DNA of 6,205 nt, from positions 1-6,205 of the forward strand of contig PWHN01000046.1 in NCBI GenBank assembly GCA_003554945.1, written 5' to 3'. The DNA is from a bacterium (GTDB lineage: Bacteria; T1Sed10-126). Shown one piece after another: positions 1 through 6,205 of the stretch; position 1 is the stretch's first letter, and the number at the start of each line of letters is the position of its first letter. Under the pieces are notes generated by a model. The model was not told the DNA's origin and did no database searches. It saw only the letters and a program-made list of their open reading frames with translations. Made by a program: the position numbers and the translations under genes.

Positions 1-3
1 AAA

Positions 4-160
4 TAAAGTTTTGCGGTTTGTAAACAAAATAGGCCATATCTTATTTTCTCATTCTCTCGAGCATTTAATCGAGAGTGTGATGAAGAATGAGTTTACGCTA
101 TTCTGGAGCCGCCTGCAAATGTTTTTCTCATTCTCGGTTGCCCTCCAGGCAACCTCCGAG
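4..160. repeat. Left copy of a structured intergenic repeat
   Basis: This is an imperfect direct repeat of 5999-6113. Block A (4-45) matches 5999-6040 at 36 of 42 positions, and block B (105-138) matches 6068-6101 at 30 of 34, both without gaps. Between the blocks this copy has a hairpin (CTCTCGA 54-60 with TCGAGAG 69-75) inside an outer arm pair (CTCATTCT 48-55 with AGAATGAG 84-91). After block B comes a hairpin with stem GGTTGCC 136-142 / GGCAACC 148-154. It can also be drawn as a 10-bp stem, 133-142 with 148-160, with a 3-base bulge. The other copy has a hairpin of different sequence at the same place. No transposase or tandem structure is seen. It may be a REP/MITE-like element or a structured RNA at transcript ends; the strand is unknown. 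Confidence 0.8.
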
Positions 161-161
161 G

Positions 162-207
162 TATAGCCGGTTGCACACCAGGCCCTCGTGGCCAGCAACC
201 GGCTATA
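162..207. repeat. Large perfect hairpin, 13-bp stem
   Basis: TATAGCCGGTTGC (162-174) is exactly complementary to GCAACCGGCTATA (195-207). The 20-base loop contains GGCC at 181-184 and 190-193, which can pair further. No T-run follows on either strand, so it is not a typical intrinsic terminator. It directly follows the left repeat copy and is missing next to the right copy. It could be an independent palindromic element or an RNA/DNA structural signal. Confidence 0.75.
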
Positions 208-409
208 ATTCCGAAAAACACCTGCAGGTAGCTCCCTGTATGTTGTCAAAGAGACATCTTCATTATCCGAAAATAAGACATGACCTATCTTTCACCATAC
301 GTTTATTTTTGGTCAAGTAGGAATTGGTCCCTACCTTGTAAAAGAGAAACGGGAAATCGTAAAACTTTAGTAAACAAAAGAATTAAAGATTAAAAGAAAG
401 GGATAGTAA
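208..409 (+). promoter_or_regulatory. Leader region of the MFS fusion gene
   Basis: No convincing gene lies here. Visible elements are a 10-base palindrome ACCTGCAGGT (220-229) and an inverted repeat GTAGG 317-321 / CCTAC 330-334. The latter can extend to CAA 314-316 / TTG 336-338 with one bulged C. GTAAACAAAA (370-379) exactly repeats positions 20-29. A ribosome site AAGGGA (398-403) sits 6 bases before the ATG at 410. The region is A/T rich and no promoter stands out with good -35 and -10 spacing, so the transcription start was not placed. Confidence 0.4.
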
Positions 410-2092
410 ATGTTCAAGCTCTTTTGGAAACGTAGTTTTACCGGCATGATAACCTGCCAGACGCTTGGTGCTTTAAATGATAACGTTTTGCGCCAGGCCT
501 ATTTGCTGCTGGCGATTCAACTGGCGGGAGCTGAGCAGCAGGCAGCGGCGGTAGCTTTTACTGCGATTCCCTTCATCTTCTTCTCGCCCCTTGCCGGTCA
601 GATTACGGATCGTTATAGTAAGCGAGACGTGATAGTCTGGATGAAATTTGTAGAAGTAGTGGTGATGAGTTTTGCCGCCTGGGCGGCCTGGCATGAGAAT
701 CTCTTTGGGCTGCTCATGGGAATATTTCTGATGTTTGGTCAGAGTGCCTTTTTCAGTCCGTCGAAGTATGGAATTCTGCCTGAAATTCTTGCCTATGAAG
801 AAATGTCAGAGGGCAACGGGATCCTGCAGAGTTCAACTTACCTGGCGATACTTTTTGGGGGAGTGATTGCCGGTGGATTGCTGGAGCTGGCCCCGATGTA
901 CTGGCTCGCCCTCTTCTTTGTGATTGTCTCTCTGCTGGGCTGGTTGAGTTCACTTATTATTGAACCTCTTCCGGCCGCCGATCCCGAGCTTGAAATCAAC
1001 TACAATCCCTTTGCACGGATGGTCGAGAGCATTACCTGGATTCGTAAAGACCCTTTTCTATTTTACTTGATGCTCGGGTATGCCTACGGCTGGGGAGCGG
1101 GGGCCATACTGACGCTGGCGATCAATGTTTACGGGCTGGAAGTTCTGGGTCTTGGCGAGCTGTTGACCAGCGGACTGCTGGTGGCGCTGGCGATGGGAAT
1201 TGGGTTGGGTAGTCTCCTGGCCGGACTGTGGTCGGGAAAGAAGATTGAGCTGGGGTTGATTCCGCTGGGAGCGGTGGGATTGACGGTAACGATGTTTTTT
1301 CTTTCACTGGTCAGCGAATCGGTTATGGCCGCCTACGGGTGGTTATTTCTGGGCGGAATTTTTTCGGCTCTTTTTTTAATACCCTTTCAGGCCGCTCTGC
1401 AGGAGAGACCGCCAAAAGAAAAGAAAGGCGACCTGCTGGCCTCAACAAACGTTTTTTCATTTACGGGAGTGGTGGTGGCCTCAGCAGTTTATGTCTTATT
1501 AATTGAGCTCGGGGGGTACGGGTCACGGACACTGTTGTTTCTGGTGGGAATTGTTACACTGGCTGCAACAGTGGCACTATTTTTCTTTTTGCCCTGGCTG
1601 CTCGTGCGGTTTGCTCTCTGGACGATAGCACATTTGTTTTTCAATGTTGATGTTGAGGGACGGAAGCAGATACCGATTAGCGGAGCGACTCTTTTTCGCT
1701 GTGGAACCAAAAAATTAAGCACGCCACTGCTTATCAACTACGTTATTCCCCGACCGGCATATGTTCTCTTACCGCGTAACTTATATGAAAACGCTGCCAG
1801 CCGCTGGCTCTTCAAGCTTATCGGTGTCATACCCTACGACCCCGATTCTTCGGGGAACGAAGCGGTTATCGACCAGGTGGCAGAGGAATTTGAAGGCGAC
1901 CGAGCGGTCTGTCTGGTCGGCGATGAAGAGGCCCTGGCCCTCGAAAGAAATCTAGAAGAACTGGCTGAAAGCAAGCTGCACGAGGTTGACGTAGAGATAG
2001 AAATTGATAGGGGCGATACTGTCTTTTCGCGGCTGCGAACGCCGGCGCAGGTCAGATTTTCTAACGGGGTTGATGAAGAGGAGCGCCGTTAA
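410..2092 (+). CDS. LplT-like MFS transporter fused to a degenerate PlsC-like domain
   Basis: The protein has 560 residues. Residues 1 to about 405 form a multi-span membrane region of the lysophospholipid transporter (LplT/Aas) type. Seen are GALNDNVLRQA near the N-terminus, the MFS loop motif PLAGQITDRYSKR, and FFSPSKYGILPE, which is typical of this subfamily. Residues from about 408 to 510 read like a PlsC/LPLAT acyltransferase: VDVEGRKQIP, then PRPAYVLLPRNLYE, then LFKLIGVIPYDPD. However, the HX4D catalytic motif is replaced (T433 and T438 at the expected His and Asp positions), and the usual FPEG motif reads VGDE. Family knowledge: Aas-like fusions flip lysophospholipid inward and re-acylate it. 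Here transport is plausible but acyl transfer is not, and no acyl-ACP ligase domain follows. The ATG start has AAGGGA 6 bases upstream. The gene appears monocistronic and ends tail-to-tail with mazG. The transporter class is fairly sure; the substrate is inferred. Confidence 0.8.
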   Translation: MFKLFWKRSFTGMITCQTLGALNDNVLRQAYLLLAIQLAGAEQQAAAVAFTAIPFIFFSPLAGQITDRYSKRDVIVWMKFVEVVVMSFAAWAAWHENLFGLLMGIFLMFGQSAFFSPSKYGILPEILAYEEMSEGNGILQSSTYLAILFGGVIAGGLLELAPMYWLALFFVIVSLLGWLSSLIIEPLPAADPELEINYNPFARMVESITWIRKDPFLFYLMLGYAYGWGAGAILTLAINVYGLEVLGLGELLTSGLLVALAMGIGLGSLLAGLWSGKKIELGLIPLGAVGLTVTMFFLSLVSESVMAAYGWLFLGGIFSALFLIPFQAALQERPPKEKKGDLLASTNVFSFTGVVVASAVYVLLIELGGYGSRTLLFLVGIVTLAATVALFFFLPWLLVRFALWTIAHLFFNVDVEGRKQIPISGATLFRCGTKKLSTPLLINYVIPRPAYVLLPRNLYENAASRWLFKLIGVIPYDPDSSGNEAVIDQVAEEFEGDRAVCLVGDEEALALERNLEELAESKLHEVDVEIEIDRGDTVFSRLRTPAQVRFSNGVDEEERR

Positions 2093-2109
2093 CTCTTCCC
2101 GTCGTTTTT
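2075..2109 (+). terminator. Weak possible terminator across the convergent stops
   Basis: GAAGAG (2075-2080) pairs with CTCTTC (2093-2098) around a 12-base loop holding both stop codons. TTTTT follows at 2105-2109, six bases after the stem. The stem is short and the T-run is displaced, so activity is doubtful. A second inverted repeat, TAACGG 2062-2067 / CCGTTA 2086-2091, overlaps it. No T-run follows on the minus strand. Confidence 0.25.
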
Positions 2110-2502
2110 CTCCGCTTGCTTAATACGCTCCCAGTTAGCGAGAATTTCTTCCGTATTCTCGACCTCCAGGTCGCCAAAGACGTGTGGATGCCGGCGTTTT
2201 AGTTTAGAAGTAATTCCTTTAATTACCCGCTTCAAATTAAACTCATCCTGTTCATACGCAATTTGTGTCAGAAAGAGTACGTGTAAGAGAAGATCGCCCA
2301 GTTCTTCACAGAGGTGCTCGTGGTCTTCATTGTCAATCGCCTCGACGACTTCTTGGGCTTCTTCTAGCAAATGTGGCCGCATAGACTTTAAAGTCTGCTG
2401 ACGGTCCCACTCGCAGCCGTTTTCTGAACGCAGGTGAGCAACAACTTCAATTAGCTCGGCAAATGCATCGGTTGGTGGATTTTTAATAATATTCTCATTC
2501 AT
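2089..2502 (-). CDS. mazG: MazG-type nucleotide pyrophosphohydrolase, single domain
   Basis: This is a 137-residue protein of the all-alpha MazG NTP pyrophosphohydrolase superfamily, which hydrolyses (d)NTPs to NMP and pyrophosphate with Mg2+ in the cytoplasm. The family pattern is clear: FAELIEVVAHLR, then NGCEWDRQQT (28-37), then the metal-binding helices LLEEAQEVVEAI (E47, E48, E51) and EELGDLLLHV (E67, D70), then KRRHPHVFGD (102-111) and the C-terminal WERIKQAEK. E. coli MazG is about twice as long with two such domains; this is one domain, as in many short homologues. I chose the ATG at 2502 because family similarity begins just after it. The in-frame extension upstream to 2643 (Pro/Arg rich) looks non-coding, although a GTG at 2513 is possible. 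Its own ribosome site (GGATG) is poor; see the upstream frame at 2504-2569. House-cleaning of non-canonical nucleotides is inferred. Confidence 0.88.
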   Translation of the reverse strand: MNENIIKNPPTDAFAELIEVVAHLRSENGCEWDRQQTLKSMRPHLLEEAQEVVEAIDNEDHEHLCEELGDLLLHVLFLTQIAYEQDEFNLKRVIKGITSKLKRRHPHVFGDLEVENTEEILANWERIKQAEKNDGKS

Positions 2503-2508
2503 ATTATT
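2485..2508 (-). promoter_or_regulatory. mazG: A/T hairpin over the mazG start codon
   Basis: AATAATAT (2485-2492) and ATATTATT (2501-2508) are perfect inverted repeats with an 8-base loop. In the mazG transcript the start codon (2502-2500) lies at the stem/loop edge and the upstream TAA lies in the stem. The stem is pure A/T and therefore weak. A ribosome finishing the upstream frame would open it, which would fit coupled translation. Confidence 0.35.
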
Positions 2509-2569
2509 CACATCCAGGTAGATATATGGTGGTGGAAAGTCGGCAAATAGTTCTTGCAAATGATAACAT
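2504..2569 (-). CDS. Possible 21-residue leader peptide upstream of mazG
   Basis: On the minus strand an ATG (2569-2567) is preceded by AGAGAGG, whose GAGG core (2580-2577) lies 7 bases upstream. This is far better than the mazG site. The frame runs 21 codons (MLSFARTICRLSTTIYLPGCE) and ends in TAA (2506-2504), one base before the mazG ATG (2502-2500), in a different frame. This is the geometry of translational coupling. The peptide resembles nothing I recognise. It could be a chance frame next to a chance purine run, so existence and function are inferred from the ribosome site and spacing only. Confidence 0.4.
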   Translation of the reverse strand: MLSFARTICRLSTTIYLPGCE

Positions 2570-2582
2570 TTTATTTCCTCTC

Positions 2583-2638
2583 TTTCAGGGGGGGCTCGGG
2601 GGCCGGAATGACGAGCTCGTGGGGAGGTTCTGCTGAAA
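2583..2638. promoter_or_regulatory. G/C-rich dyad island in the mazG-prfB divergent region
   Basis: Outer arms TTTCAG (2583-2588) and CTGAAA (2633-2638) enclose a G-rich island with a perfect 10-base palindrome ACGAGCTCGT (2611-2620). A second pairing, GCTCG 2594-2598 with CGAGC 2612-2616, overlaps the palindrome. The island contrasts with A/T-rich flanks. It could be an operator or a structured part of the mazG leader; no regulator is recognised. Confidence 0.3.
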
Positions 2639-2650
2639 ATCAATGAGAGC

Positions 2651-2679
2651 TGGATTTTATTGTTTGAATTGGGTAAAAT
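2651..2679 (+). promoter_or_regulatory. Candidate promoter for the prfB operon
   Basis: TAAAAT (2674-2679) is a good -10 match. With 17-base spacing the -35 position (TGGATT, 2651-2656) matches the TTGACA consensus at only 3 of 6 bases. If used, transcription would begin near 2686, giving a leader of about 105 bases. The opposite strand has a similar TAAAAT (complement of 2654-2659) that could serve mazG, also without a clear -35. This is only a consensus guess. Confidence 0.3.
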
Positions 2680-2777
2680 AAATACAACATTTATGTTTCA
2701 AAACCTTCTGCTCGTTTTCTTGCGTCCGGGGGTGAAAGTCAGGGTGGGAAGCTGTGAGGGTTTGATTTATATTTATC

Positions 2778-2783
2778 GGAGGT
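2778..2783 (+). promoter_or_regulatory. prfB: Strong ribosome site fixing the TTG start of prfB
   Basis: GGAGGT lies 7 bases before TTG at 2791, an optimal Shine-Dalgarno sequence and spacing. It supports TTG as the real initiation codon. Confidence 0.85.
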
Positions 2784-2790
2784 AGAGAAG

Positions 2791-3903
2791 TTGAGCACTA
2801 ATAATTATTCTTCATATCTTTCAGAACTCCGGGAAGAGTTGGGCGAGCTGGGTGAATATCTTGACCTGAAGGAATTGCGCGAAAAAGTGCATGAATTGCA
2901 GAGCCAGATGAGCCAACCGGATTTCTGGGATGACCAGGGCCGAGCCCGACGTATTTCGCGTGAGGCGAGTAGAGTTGAAGATACGATTAACCAGTATGAA
3001 TCTTTGCACGAGGCTATAGACGATTTAGAAGCCATGGTTGAGTTGGAAGCCGAGTCGGAGGAAGCCAGCTTCAGCGATGAGATCGAACGGGGATTAAAAG
3101 AGGCAAAGAAGAAGGTTCAAAGTCTTCGCTGGCGTTATTTTCTGGACGGCGAATATGATGACCGTGAGGCGATGCTGAGCATTAATCCAGGAGCCGGAGG
3201 GACTGAGGCGCATGACTGGGCTGAAATGCTCTACAGGATGTATCGCCGCTGGTGCGAAAATGAGGGGATTGAATATAGCGTTCTCAACGTCACTGCGGGA
3301 GAAGAGGCGGGGATAAAAAATGCAACGATGCAGATTAAAGATGATTACGCTTACGGTCGATTGAAGGGAGAGGCGGGAGTTCACAGGCTGGTTAGAATAT
3401 CACCTTTTGATTCCAGCAGTCGCCGTCACACATCTTTTGCCGCGGTTGAGGTTATGCCGGATTTAGATGTGGTCGACGAGGTGGATCTTGACGAGACCGA
3501 CCTAAAAATAGATACTTTTCGTTCCAGTGGTCCAGGCGGTCAGCACGCAAACATGACCGATAGCGCCGTCCGAATTATACATGAACCTACCGGTCTGGTA
3601 GCTAAGTGTGAAAACGAAAGAAGTCAGCATAAAAATCGAGAAACAGCAATGAAAATTTTGAAATCTCGGCTGTTAGAGCTTAAAATAGAAGAGCAGAAGG
3701 AAGATATTAATGAACTCAGGGGAGAAAAGCAGTCTATTGAATGGGGCAGCCAGATTCGCTCCTATGTAAATCATCCTTATCAGCAGGTTAAAGATCACCG
3801 GACCAACTGTGAAGTAAGTAGTTTTGAGACAGTGCTGGACGGTGAAATAAACGAGTTTATTGAAGCATATCTCAGTTCGGAAGTGAATCAGTCATCAAAT
3901 TAA
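2791..3903 (+). CDS. prfB: Peptide chain release factor 2
   Basis: This 370-residue protein is the normal size for RF2, which releases finished peptides at UAA and UGA codons on the ribosome. The N-terminal part (to about 115) is a helical coiled region with SQPDFWDD. The RF2 core follows, with INPGAGGTEAHDWAEMLYRMY. The stop-codon recognition tripeptide SPF is at 204-206; RF1 would have PAT-like residues. The peptidyl-transferase-centre motif GGQ is at 249-251, followed by HANMTDSAVRI, where most family members have HVN and then K/R. KCENERSQHKN and WGSQIRSYV are typical. Translation starts at TTG with a strong ribosome site. The frame is continuous: the site equivalent to the E. coli +1 frameshift reads TAT CTT GAC (2857-2865) with no in-frame TGA, so autoregulation by frameshifting is absent. 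It heads an operon with two envelope genes. Confidence 0.97.
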   Translation: MSTNNYSSYLSELREELGELGEYLDLKELREKVHELQSQMSQPDFWDDQGRARRISREASRVEDTINQYESLHEAIDDLEAMVELEAESEEASFSDEIERGLKEAKKKVQSLRWRYFLDGEYDDREAMLSINPGAGGTEAHDWAEMLYRMYRRWCENEGIEYSVLNVTAGEEAGIKNATMQIKDDYAYGRLKGEAGVHRLVRISPFDSSSRRHTSFAAVEVMPDLDVVDEVDLDETDLKIDTFRSSGPGGQHANMTDSAVRIIHEPTGLVAKCENERSQHKNRETAMKILKSRLLELKIEEQKEDINELRGEKQSIEWGSQIRSYVNHPYQQVKDHRTNCEVSSFETVLDGEINEFIEAYLSSEVNQSSN

Positions 3904-3932
3904 CAAGGTCATTTCGTTACGTAATTCTTGCA

Positions 3933-5330
3933 GTGCTTGTCTTTTTTGCGGCGGTATTTACCGTACACCGCGTTGGTCTGGAGACTTTTGGCCGTCAGCT
4001 CAACATATACAATTTTGAGCAGCCGGAGATAATGCGGCTGGAGACCGTTGGTGAGCTGGAGAAAAGTGGCAAGGTAGCACTCTACAGAGGCGAAGAGATA
4101 AAGCGGCTATTTTTTGCTCATCTACCCAAAAATCCACTCATGGTTGGTCAGGTTAGAAATCTTGAAATCGATCATGAAAAAACTTATGTAATTACGACTG
4201 AGACTTTTTACTTTCAACTGCTTGATCATTCAATACCGGAACTCGAGGTATATGAACACCCCAACCGAGGCTATCTGGACGGAAGCGCTCTGCCCAATGT
4301 TTATGTGTTAAAGAGCGATCTTTCGCCTGAAACTATTGTCAGCAAGCCGGTGGCCAGTATTAAGTATCCCGAGCAGCCGGTGGCTGAGAAATACCTCTAT
4401 CTAAGCAACAACTACGAGCTGGATATATTTTTGGACGGCCCGGTTCCAGAGGAACAGTTTGCCCTGATTTTGCCCGAAGCGGAAACACCTTACCCGGATC
4501 GATTTTTAGATCAGATCACGAGATTTTTAAATTATGGTGATGAAGTAATAGAGGTGGGACCGTATGATCGGCTGGTCGGGGGTGAAATATACCTGACCGA
4601 ATACGATTTGGCGCAGCGTAAATCGAGGGGATTTTTTAAGGGCTTCAGCAGTAATTTCTATTCGTTTGCCTACCTGCTGCTGGGATTGACCGTATCTTTT
4701 TTGGGGTTTTACAACCAGGGTAAAGTTGTCTCATGGGTATTATGTGCAGTATTACTGTCTTTTATGGCTCCGTTCTATCAGCTCCACAGGGTGATAACCG
4801 GACTGCTTTCAGTAGCTATTTTGAAGCTGGGCTGGTTACGTAAGAGCCGTTCACTTATATGGTATTTTCTTGCCGGCATATTGACTTTCAGTCTGCTTTA
4901 CGCCTCTTTTCTATTAGATCCGTTTGCCGGAGTTGAACAGATTATATACGGACTTATTTTAGGTGGAATAATTTTCATTAATTTGCCAGCCGGCTGGCGC
5001 CGCCGCCGTCCTAATTTTGAAGATTTGACTTATTGGTCATTTGTGGCTCTTTTCTTTTTATTTCTTATGTATCCCTGGGCCGGCGGTGTAGAAGTTGAAC
5101 AATTTGTGCGAGCTGCAGTTTTGATTTTCCTGCCCGTATTTGGCTGGCTATTTCCACGCTGGGGAATAAAACGACACCTGTTGAGACTGATTGGGATAAC
5201 GGGCTGGTTGATTCTGTTTACCCAGGGAGTAGGGGTTTTATATCTGTTTTTATTTTCCGTGGCGATAATAGCGTGGGAAATAGAATTGCTATATCTGAAT
5301 CCAGAAATAGTGGAGCAGAGGTTTCTTTAG
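3933..5330 (+). CDS. Multi-spanning membrane protein, DUF5693-like
   Basis: The listed frame has 465 residues from GTG 3933. It shows a short N-terminal hydrophobic stretch, a soluble region of about 225 residues probably outside the membrane, and from about residue 244 to the end a dense membrane domain of roughly eight helices. The passage IMRLETVGELEKSGKVALYRGEEI resembles the N-terminal part of the Firmicutes DUF5693 family, but the protein is shorter than I expect for that family. Function is unknown. GTG 3933 has no nearby ribosome site and cuts the anchor helix. The frame is open from 3864 and, read from 3894, encodes IKLTRSFRYVILAVLVFFAA, a textbook basic-plus-hydrophobic anchor, so the real start is probably upstream, overlapping prfB. 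It lies 29 bases after prfB by the listed start and overlaps the next gene by one base (TAGTG). The gene is certain, the family moderate. Confidence 0.75.
   Translation: MLVFFAAVFTVHRVGLETFGRQLNIYNFEQPEIMRLETVGELEKSGKVALYRGEEIKRLFFAHLPKNPLMVGQVRNLEIDHEKTYVITTETFYFQLLDHSIPELEVYEHPNRGYLDGSALPNVYVLKSDLSPETIVSKPVASIKYPEQPVAEKYLYLSNNYELDIFLDGPVPEEQFALILPEAETPYPDRFLDQITRFLNYGDEVIEVGPYDRLVGGEIYLTEYDLAQRKSRGFFKGFSSNFYSFAYLLLGLTVSFLGFYNQGKVVSWVLCAVLLSFMAPFYQLHRVITGLLSVAILKLGWLRKSRSLIWYFLAGILTFSLLYASFLLDPFAGVEQIIYGLILGGIIFINLPAGWRRRRPNFEDLTYWSFVALFFLFLMYPWAGGVEVEQFVRAAVLIFLPVFGWLFPRWGIKRHLLRLIGITGWLILFTQGVGVLYLFLFSVAIIAWEIELLYLNPEIVEQRFL
5317..5321 (+). promoter_or_regulatory. Ribosome site deciding the transglycosylase start
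   Basis: AGAGG lies 8 bases before the GTG at 5330, inside the end of the preceding gene. It supports this start over an in-frame GTG at 5273, which would put 19 polar residues before the signal peptide. Confidence 0.75.
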
Positions 5331-5974
5331 TGAAACTTTCAAAATTATTAAAAATTATTTCTACAGTCACGGTTCTTTCTCTGCTACTGATTCTGCCATT
5401 AGCGGCTGAAGACATATACATACGCCGTGAAAATGGCATAATAAAGCTGACTGAAGAGCCGGAACGTGATGATGAGGCGTTTTTAAGGCAGGCTCAAAAA
5501 CCTGAGGAGCAGGAGTTGCCCGGGTTGGAAGAGCTGCAGGATATAATTGCGGAAAACGCCGATCGTTTTGATCTTCCTGAAGTATTGATTTATTCTGTTA
5601 TCATGATGGAATCCGCCGGTGACAGCACGGCCTTGAGCGAAGCGGGAGCCCAGGGGCTAATGCAGTTGATGCCGCAAACGGCAGAATTGCTGGAAGTAGA
5701 AGACGTCTGGAATCCGGAAGAGAACATACGAGGTGGCAGCCAGTATTTGAGTCAGATGCTGGCTCGTTACGACGGTGATTTAGACCTGGCGCTGGCGGCT
5801 TACAATGCCGGACCCGGTGCCGTGGATCAACACGACGGCATTCCCCCCTACTCAGAGACAGAACATTTTGTAGAGGCGACCCGCAGCTCTTTCGAGGAGC
5901 TCAGGCGGGAAGAGAATAAAATATTTTTCTATCGTGATTCGCGTGGAATTATAAATATAACCAACGTAAAGTAA
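5330..5974 (+). CDS. Secreted SLT-domain lytic transglycosylase
   Basis: This 214-residue exported protein of the soluble lytic transglycosylase (Slt/MltE-like, GH23) family cleaves peptidoglycan glycans between MurNAc and GlcNAc, forming 1,6-anhydro ends. Residues 1-26 are a signal peptide (MKLSKLLK, a hydrophobic core, LPLAA) with no lipobox cysteine. The SLT domain covers about 66-185: IYSVIMMESAG with catalytic E94, GAQGLMQLMP (106-115), NPEENIRGG (128-136), AAYNAGPGAV (156-165) and PYSETEHFVE. On both sides are similar short segments, IYIRRENGIIKLTEEP (29-44) and IFFYRDSRGIINITNVK (198-214), resembling the DUF4124-type motif that accompanies some such enzymes. The mature part is very acidic. 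GTG 5330 overlaps the previous stop by one base and has AGAGG 8 bases upstream; it is the last gene of the prfB operon. No clear terminator follows. Enzyme class is sure; the role of the flanking motifs is inferred. Confidence 0.92.
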   Translation: MKLSKLLKIISTVTVLSLLLILPLAAEDIYIRRENGIIKLTEEPERDDEAFLRQAQKPEEQELPGLEELQDIIAENADRFDLPEVLIYSVIMMESAGDSTALSEAGAQGLMQLMPQTAELLEVEDVWNPEENIRGGSQYLSQMLARYDGDLDLALAAYNAGPGAVDQHDGIPPYSETEHFVEATRSSFEELRREENKIFFYRDSRGIINITNVK

Positions 5975-5998
5975 ATTTTTATCAAATGTTCAACTTTC

Positions 5999-6113
5999 TA
6001 AAGTTTTGCGTTTTGCAAGCAAGAGCGGCCATATCTTATTGTTCCATGCACTCAAACGAGAGTGGGAGGGGCCACCTGCAAGTATTTTTCTCATTCTCGG
6101 TCCCTATCGGGAC
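5999..6113. repeat. Right copy of the structured intergenic repeat
   Basis: This is a direct repeat of 4-160, starting 25 bases after the transglycosylase stop. Block A is 5999-6040 and block B is 6068-6101. The middle is shorter than in the left copy, with CACTC 6049-6053 / GAGTG 6060-6064 as its dyad. After block B is a hairpin GTCCC 6100-6104 / GGGAC 6109-6113, at the place where the left copy has GGTTGCC / GGCAACC: the pairing is kept while the sequence differs. The AACTTT / AAAGTT inverted repeat (5992-5997 / 6000-6005) at its left edge is too weak to call a terminator. Confidence 0.8.
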
Positions 6114-6205
6114 GTGTGTTTGCTTTGCCTATTTTTATGATCACAGGAGGTTAGAGCCCCATAGATATCGTGGAAGGAAAAAGCCTCCATTGCTAAATGG
6201 TCCAG
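6114..6205. other. Gene-free right edge
   Basis: No supported gene is seen in this tail. A small hairpin, CCATT 6187-6191 / AATGG 6196-6200, is present. A minus-strand frame is open from the window edge to about 6104 (34 codons), but it is too short and featureless to call. Confidence 0.3.

Follow-up and report, generated by a model that had tools for sequence, protein, structure and literature searches.

Two copies of a palindromic repeat at the ends of the 6,205-bp window, which is one whole contig (G000:C17) of a 2.2-Mb host assembly in 121 contigs, belong to a large family of non-coding repeats that lies between genes in dozens to more than 100 copies in some bacteria and spans at least four phyla. 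The family is best explained as a superfamily of non-autonomous mobile palindromic repeats, similar to MITEs and intergenic repeat units, with a junction read by a putative factor, a reading to which we assign a probability of about 0.58. Small palindromic repeats are usually lineage-specific with conserved arms, whereas here the junction alone is conserved, and it is conserved over phyla. Apart from tRNAs, the window and ten loci gave nothing above the curated gathering threshold in Rfam release 15, with weak matches lying far below it, and a known RNA family was therefore rejected. The literature searched, which included few subscription papers, held no description of this repeat in Nitrospirota, and we regard the family as previously unlisted.

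As originally predicted, two blocks recur in unchanged order and orientation between the left and right copies: positions 4-58 match 5999-6053 (55 nt, 80% identity, spacing 5995) and positions 105-138 match 6068-6101 (34 nt, 30/34 or 88% identity, spacing 5963), such that direct repeats flank the intervening genes. Chance is excluded as the source of the copies because BLAST placed the left one at 58 sites in the host genome (best E = 2.6 × 10−198, many with E < 1 × 10−40) and the right one at 34 (at a loose cut-off of E ≤ 10). The left element is complete (3-370, plus strand), a palindromic repeat with MITE-like ends that begins with ATAAAGTTTTGC at 3-14 and closes with CTAAAGTTTTAC on the minus strand at 359-370, and thus terminates in an inverted copy of its own start (4-19 pairs with 354-369). 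The right element (5998-6205, plus strand) is not a short copy but only the 5' part of a full-length element that the contig end truncates, as related copies of the same variant in contigs C102 and C24 extend past the break point. Its first junction block, TCATTCTC, lies at 6091-6098 on the plus strand and is followed by a segment running from TCCCTATCGGGACGTGTG to GGTCCAG (6101-6205, plus strand) that in some host copies (C102, C24, C81, C119 and the right copy of C17) takes the place of most of hairpin P2. The GTCCC/GGGAC stem of the right copy, which had been taken for a compensated form of GGTTGCC/GGCAACC in the left copy, is instead part of this longer replacement. The replacing segment is about 100 nt long, contains GGAGGTTAGAGCCCCATAGATATCGTGGAAGGAAAAAGCCTCC and is itself well conserved (6101-6205 of the window and C102, C24, C81 and C119).

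The gene block between the copies spans 410-5974 and comprises five genes unrelated to the repeats, three at 410-2092 (plus strand), 2089-2643 (minus strand) and 3933-5330 (plus strand), and two on the plus strand that, from sequence only, read as peptide chain release factor 2 (2791-3903) and a lytic transglycosylase (5273-5974). Repeats are indeed present on both sides of the five genes, but this bracketing is at least partly an assembly effect, because the right copy and several other host copies sit at contig ends where the assembly broke at repeats. We accordingly rejected a compound transposon bracketing the five genes, as the window is a single contig delimited by breaks at repeats.

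The conserved core is approximately 130 nt long and consists, in order, of P1, TCATTCTC, P2, TCCGAGGTAT (TCCGAGG-TAT), P3, ATAA(A/T)TCCG and P1'. On the plus strand of the left element, where our model R1 matches 105-237, the 5' arm of the P1 stem (GGAGCCGCCTGCAAATGTTTTTC) occupies 105-127 and is followed by invariant junction block 1 (TCATTCTC, 128-135), hairpin P2 (136-154, stem GGTTGCC/GGCAACC, loop CTCCA), invariant junction block 2 (TCCGAGG, 155-161) and hairpin P3 (162-207, stem TATAGCCGGTTGC/GCAACCGGCTATA). Conserved block 3 (ATAATTCCG, 205-213) closes P3 with its first three bases and pairs with P1 through its last G, where the 3' arm of P1 (GAAAAACACCTGCAGGTAGCTCC, 213-235) begins. 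Folded as single-stranded RNA, window positions 1-400 reached −139.6 kcal/mol compared to a shuffle mean of −85.8 (z = −10.9), and the core as a single strand is predicted to form a three-way junction in which a long P1 closes P2 and P3, joined by the invariant segments TCATTCTC, TCCGAGG and AATCC(G).

We assessed covariation in an alignment of 27 diverse cores that was made without fitting to any structure. All 24 invariant columns fell within or adjoining the junction, and RNAalifold recovered 27 pairs, 21 of which changed on both sides. Cells at paired positions were complementary in 91.9% of cases (65.1% after shuffling), and the covariation score was 0.690 compared to 0.176 ± 0.015 in shuffled alignments and at most 0.20 when the structure was slid along the alignment; both controls leave relatedness in, a minor concern since the arms share little sequence between families. 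The combination of two-sided stem changes and conserved unpaired positions is that expected of a structured RNA, and stems lacking compensatory change, named in the original prediction as evidence against it, were not what we found. True compensatory change is thus present, but across the wider family and not in the stem pair on which the prediction had relied, and the predicted pattern of conserved unpaired blocks with changing, paired stems extends far beyond what the window suggested.

Searching 257 Gb of species genomes for the exact whole-core pattern returned 39 further stretches, compared to about 0.2 expected by our own estimate, all in records named Nitrospirae, Nitrospirota, Nitrospira or Thermodesulfovibrionales. 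Viral contigs gave no match to the core pattern (0 matches), and viral carriage of the element was rejected on this basis. The covariance model detected the core in six of 386 sampled genomes, one of them the host. It also counted 12-111 copies per genome in each of 12 Nitrospirota genomes. Within a sample of 295 genomes from the phylum of G124, which includes the same Nitrospirota genomes as judged by contig coordinates, 58 genomes and 43 of 135 genera were carriers. Two further phyla are represented by G284 and G068, the sole carriers found among the 19 and 2 genomes there, and the host of the window shares only a domain-level relationship with all Nitrospirota. The family therefore spans at least four phyla, because the host, the Nitrospirota and the phyla of G284 and G068 are distinct.

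Within the host genome, a pattern covering the core's second half had 42 exact matches (reversed-pattern control, 0), whereas a genome holding only the two copies of the window had been given as grounds for abandoning the prediction. At least eight different P3 stems occurred among these matches, each of them complementary. The same core was found within unrelated terminal inverted repeats, including CTAAAGTTTTGC, GGCTCTGTTGAAATCC, GGCTTTGTAGAAAACC and others, and different outer terminal repeats also surround it in JAAYUK01, JACUUX01 and G284. Ends of the GGCTCTGTTGAAATCC type were represented by about 100 end-like sites in the host genome at three or fewer mismatches (control, 14), and some CTAAAG elements of the host carry two cores in opposite orientations. 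The elements are thus short, non-coding and multi-copy in the manner of MITEs. Terminal inverted repeats were present in the host subfamilies and some other carriers; in most Nitrospirota genomes conservation ends at the outer P1, with nothing conserved outside it, and individual copies have different P1 sequences that nonetheless pair. The host flanks showed no clear target-site duplication, orthologous empty sites being too diverged to read, and no inverted CTAAAGTTTTGC end pair 1-3 kb apart, as an autonomous partner would have, was present in the host, whose assembly is broken at these repeats.

Two side observations concern the host elements. Core-less miniatures of 66-77 bp with GGCTCTGTTGAAATCC-type ends occur at three loci (L330, L331 and L332 on G000:C54, C117 and C34) and are apparently deletion derivatives, while a core-bearing element at L334 (G000:C47:26000-26660) is apparently interrupted by an unrelated long palindrome, such that repeats in this genome appear to nest within one another.

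Copies were gained, lost and inverted at orthologous sites. Between G389 (JACRGY01) and G390 (WPIF01), seven sites with flanks of approximately 91-98% identity were occupied in both genomes, an occupancy that is not a rate as the windows were picked around elements, and the two genomes had the same element at four sites and a different sequence in opposite orientation at three. More distant genomes included sites with an element in one and none in the other. Copies within most Nitrospirota genomes were diverged rather than near-identical, which, together with P1 as the outer boundary, points to long-standing, maintained copies more than to recent mobility. The original prediction had offered a selected RNA or a mobile palindromic element, and the second of these is well supported by copy number, MITE-like ends and presence/absence at orthologous sites, while the first is only partly borne out, as stem mismatches on the sense strand showed no preference for G-U.

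Among the 119 Nitrospirota elements for which a simple ORF caller identified both neighbours, co-directional genes flanked 86, divergent genes 18 and convergent genes 15, a distribution close to that of other gaps. A terminator role was rejected since gene context resembles background and convergent regions are not enriched. A location at 3' ends, which the position of the right copy had suggested, was likewise not supported, as elements between co-directional genes are close to both the stop and the next start, without enrichment in convergent regions. In co-directional gaps, the TCATTCTC strand matched the gene strand in 63 cases and opposed it in 23 in Nitrospirota (p = 2 × 10−5), with a ratio of 14:5 in the host, and same-strand cases lay a median of 14 nt past the upstream stop and 24 nt ahead of the next start. 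Such placement and strand bias, together with a junction that stays invariant across phyla while the stems change on both sides, would be expected if the repeats were a functional class of structured RNA, acting in cis within operon mRNAs or as small RNAs, with a junction that binds a protein or ligand. G-U pairs are tolerated in RNA helices and A-C pairs are not, yet P1 of 121 Nitrospirota elements, read on the TCATTCTC strand, had 112 A-C compared to 25 G-T mismatches (94 and 23 when counted by distinct local contexts), the opposite of the tolerance of an mRNA hairpin, which argues against simple selection as RNA on this strand. The complementary strand would be consistent with the wobble pattern and gave the better fold in 86 of 95 non-host elements (a loosely selected set with some false members); it could give an antisense RNA but is antisense to most flanking genes. 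Moreover, up to 111 copies lie beside unrelated genes, unlike a riboswitch, and sites are empty or inverted in relatives, such that we consider an RNA function for the family rather unlikely.

The absence of a G-U preference on the sense strand indicates that DNA-level processes may maintain much of the covariation. The A-C excess was concentrated in junction-proximal P1, with nearer balance in distal P1, P2 and P3, and the corresponding G-U preference of the opposite strand was seen in P1, mainly by the junction, and not clearly elsewhere. Besides antisense RNA, a conserved proximal P1 sequence or DNA-level correction of the palindrome are possible sources of this excess. Template switching between the arms of inverted repeats is described as homogenising the arms and inverting the spacer (PMC8604942), and has been reported to create and maintain RNA hairpins (PMC8794818). 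As this family clearly illustrates, strong covariation need not mean RNA, since DNA-level palindrome correction yields the same signal, and the comparison of G-U and A-C mismatches is applicable to other candidates. Taken to its limit, this would make the covariation functionless, with palindromes arising and being corrected by replication template switching while stems drift yet remain paired. Mismatches of either kind, G-T or A-C, are rare and approach balance outside proximal P1, and the inversions at three G389/G390 sites suggest template switching as these accounts describe it (PMC8604942, PMC8794818), but such a process leaves unexplained both the 24 invariant junction columns across phyla and how one core came to occupy many genomes and families of terminal repeats, and we judge it very improbable as a full account.

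Under our preferred reading of mobile palindromic repeats, a putative trans-acting factor, either a recombinase or transposase or a structure-binding protein, would recognise the junction, folded either from a single DNA strand or as a cruciform. The arms would need only to pair and their sequence could drift, with palindromy probably maintained at least partly in the DNA by template switching from one arm to the other, a process that would invert the intervening segment as well. Selection against one orientation within transcripts would then account for the sense bias in co-directional gaps, although this bias could also arise from RNA function. Both the junction-reading factor and its substrate, DNA or RNA, are inferred here. 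More tentatively, a single junction fold with invariant joints and free arms may represent the substrate of a recombination or binding system that would have carried it into at least four phyla and to more than 100 copies per genome, and would allow it to travel within unrelated transposon ends. Conservation of the junction alone points to a partner that reads structure, and the covariance model is available for seeking it.

No transposase or other partner emerged as a recurrent gene family near the cores; an adjacent partner gene was rejected, as the recurrent ORFs there were repeat-derived frames, response-regulator-like paralogues and orthologous neighbours. We also considered a REP/REPIN-type origin, in which a domesticated IS200-like (Y1, RAYT) transposase would mobilise the family by recognising single-stranded DNA in its folded form. 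The mobility of REPs has been ascribed to such a domesticated enzyme, TnpA-REP (PMC8266576), and subterminal secondary structures are recognised by the related IS200 transposases (PMC6006769). Both sets of repeats are palindromic, intergenic and high in copy number, possibly read as folded single strands, and IS200/RAYT-type Y1 transposases were present in 43 of 58 carriers. However, cross-tabulation by hand also placed them in 166 of 237 non-carriers, and none was detected in the carriers G124 (9 matches), G512 and G683 (at least 11 each). Presence of a Y1 transposase does not track the element and it was rejected as the partner. The core is also far longer, at approximately 130 nt, than the 20-40 bp of REPs, most of which are tagged GTAG or CGTC (PMC3733652), and has a three-way junction and no such tag in its invariant columns, which makes this origin improbable.

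Other known systems share features with the family, which resembles ERIC/IRU repeats and MITEs in behaviour but could not be assigned to any of the families against which it was compared. ERIC/IRU sequences of enterobacteria are imperfect palindromes that, to our knowledge, are confined to enteric and related bacteria and conserve the sequence of the whole palindrome. They are likewise intergenic and multi-copy, about 130 bp long (127 bp for RU-1), and have been described as MITE-like small mobile sequences (PMC2759123, PMC2229807), whereas here the arms are rewritten and the junction alone is conserved in at least four phyla. Bacterial MITEs are comparable in being short and non-autonomous, with terminal inverted repeats as in several host subfamilies, but one core is here common to families with unrelated terminal repeats, and neither a cognate transposase nor a target duplication was found (host flanks, in a broken assembly). 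BOX and RUP elements are modular and structured, and we know of none outside streptococci. They are small interspersed repeats of the Streptococcus pneumoniae chromosome (PMC3049150), as the present elements are of their own genomes, and the sequences are unrelated. The attC sites of integrons, including the Vibrio repeats, bear a resemblance only, in having variable stems and conserved unpaired positions, in following stops and in being mostly gene-sense. The elements here are dispersed rather than arrayed, and by eye their conserved blocks do not look like attC core sites.

Several features varied among cores. In the host, JAAYUK01, G284 and CP070788, apical loops of P2 and P3 are often NTCCN (GGA when read from the other strand), and those of G284 come near a CsrA-type site (CAUGGAUG), while the NTCCN loop is missing in other Nitrospirota copies. 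A CsrA sponge was set aside, as the NGGAN apical loops that several lineages show on the antisense strand are replaced by GAA-type loops in many Nitrospirota cores. In some G124 cores (L192, L197 and L199), an insertion such as CTCGAAGAGTCGTACCGA separates P1 from CATTCTC. An element beside ribH and nusB-like genes occupies the corresponding place in three Nitrospirota genomes (L147, L150 and L170) and is a candidate for studying evolution in place.
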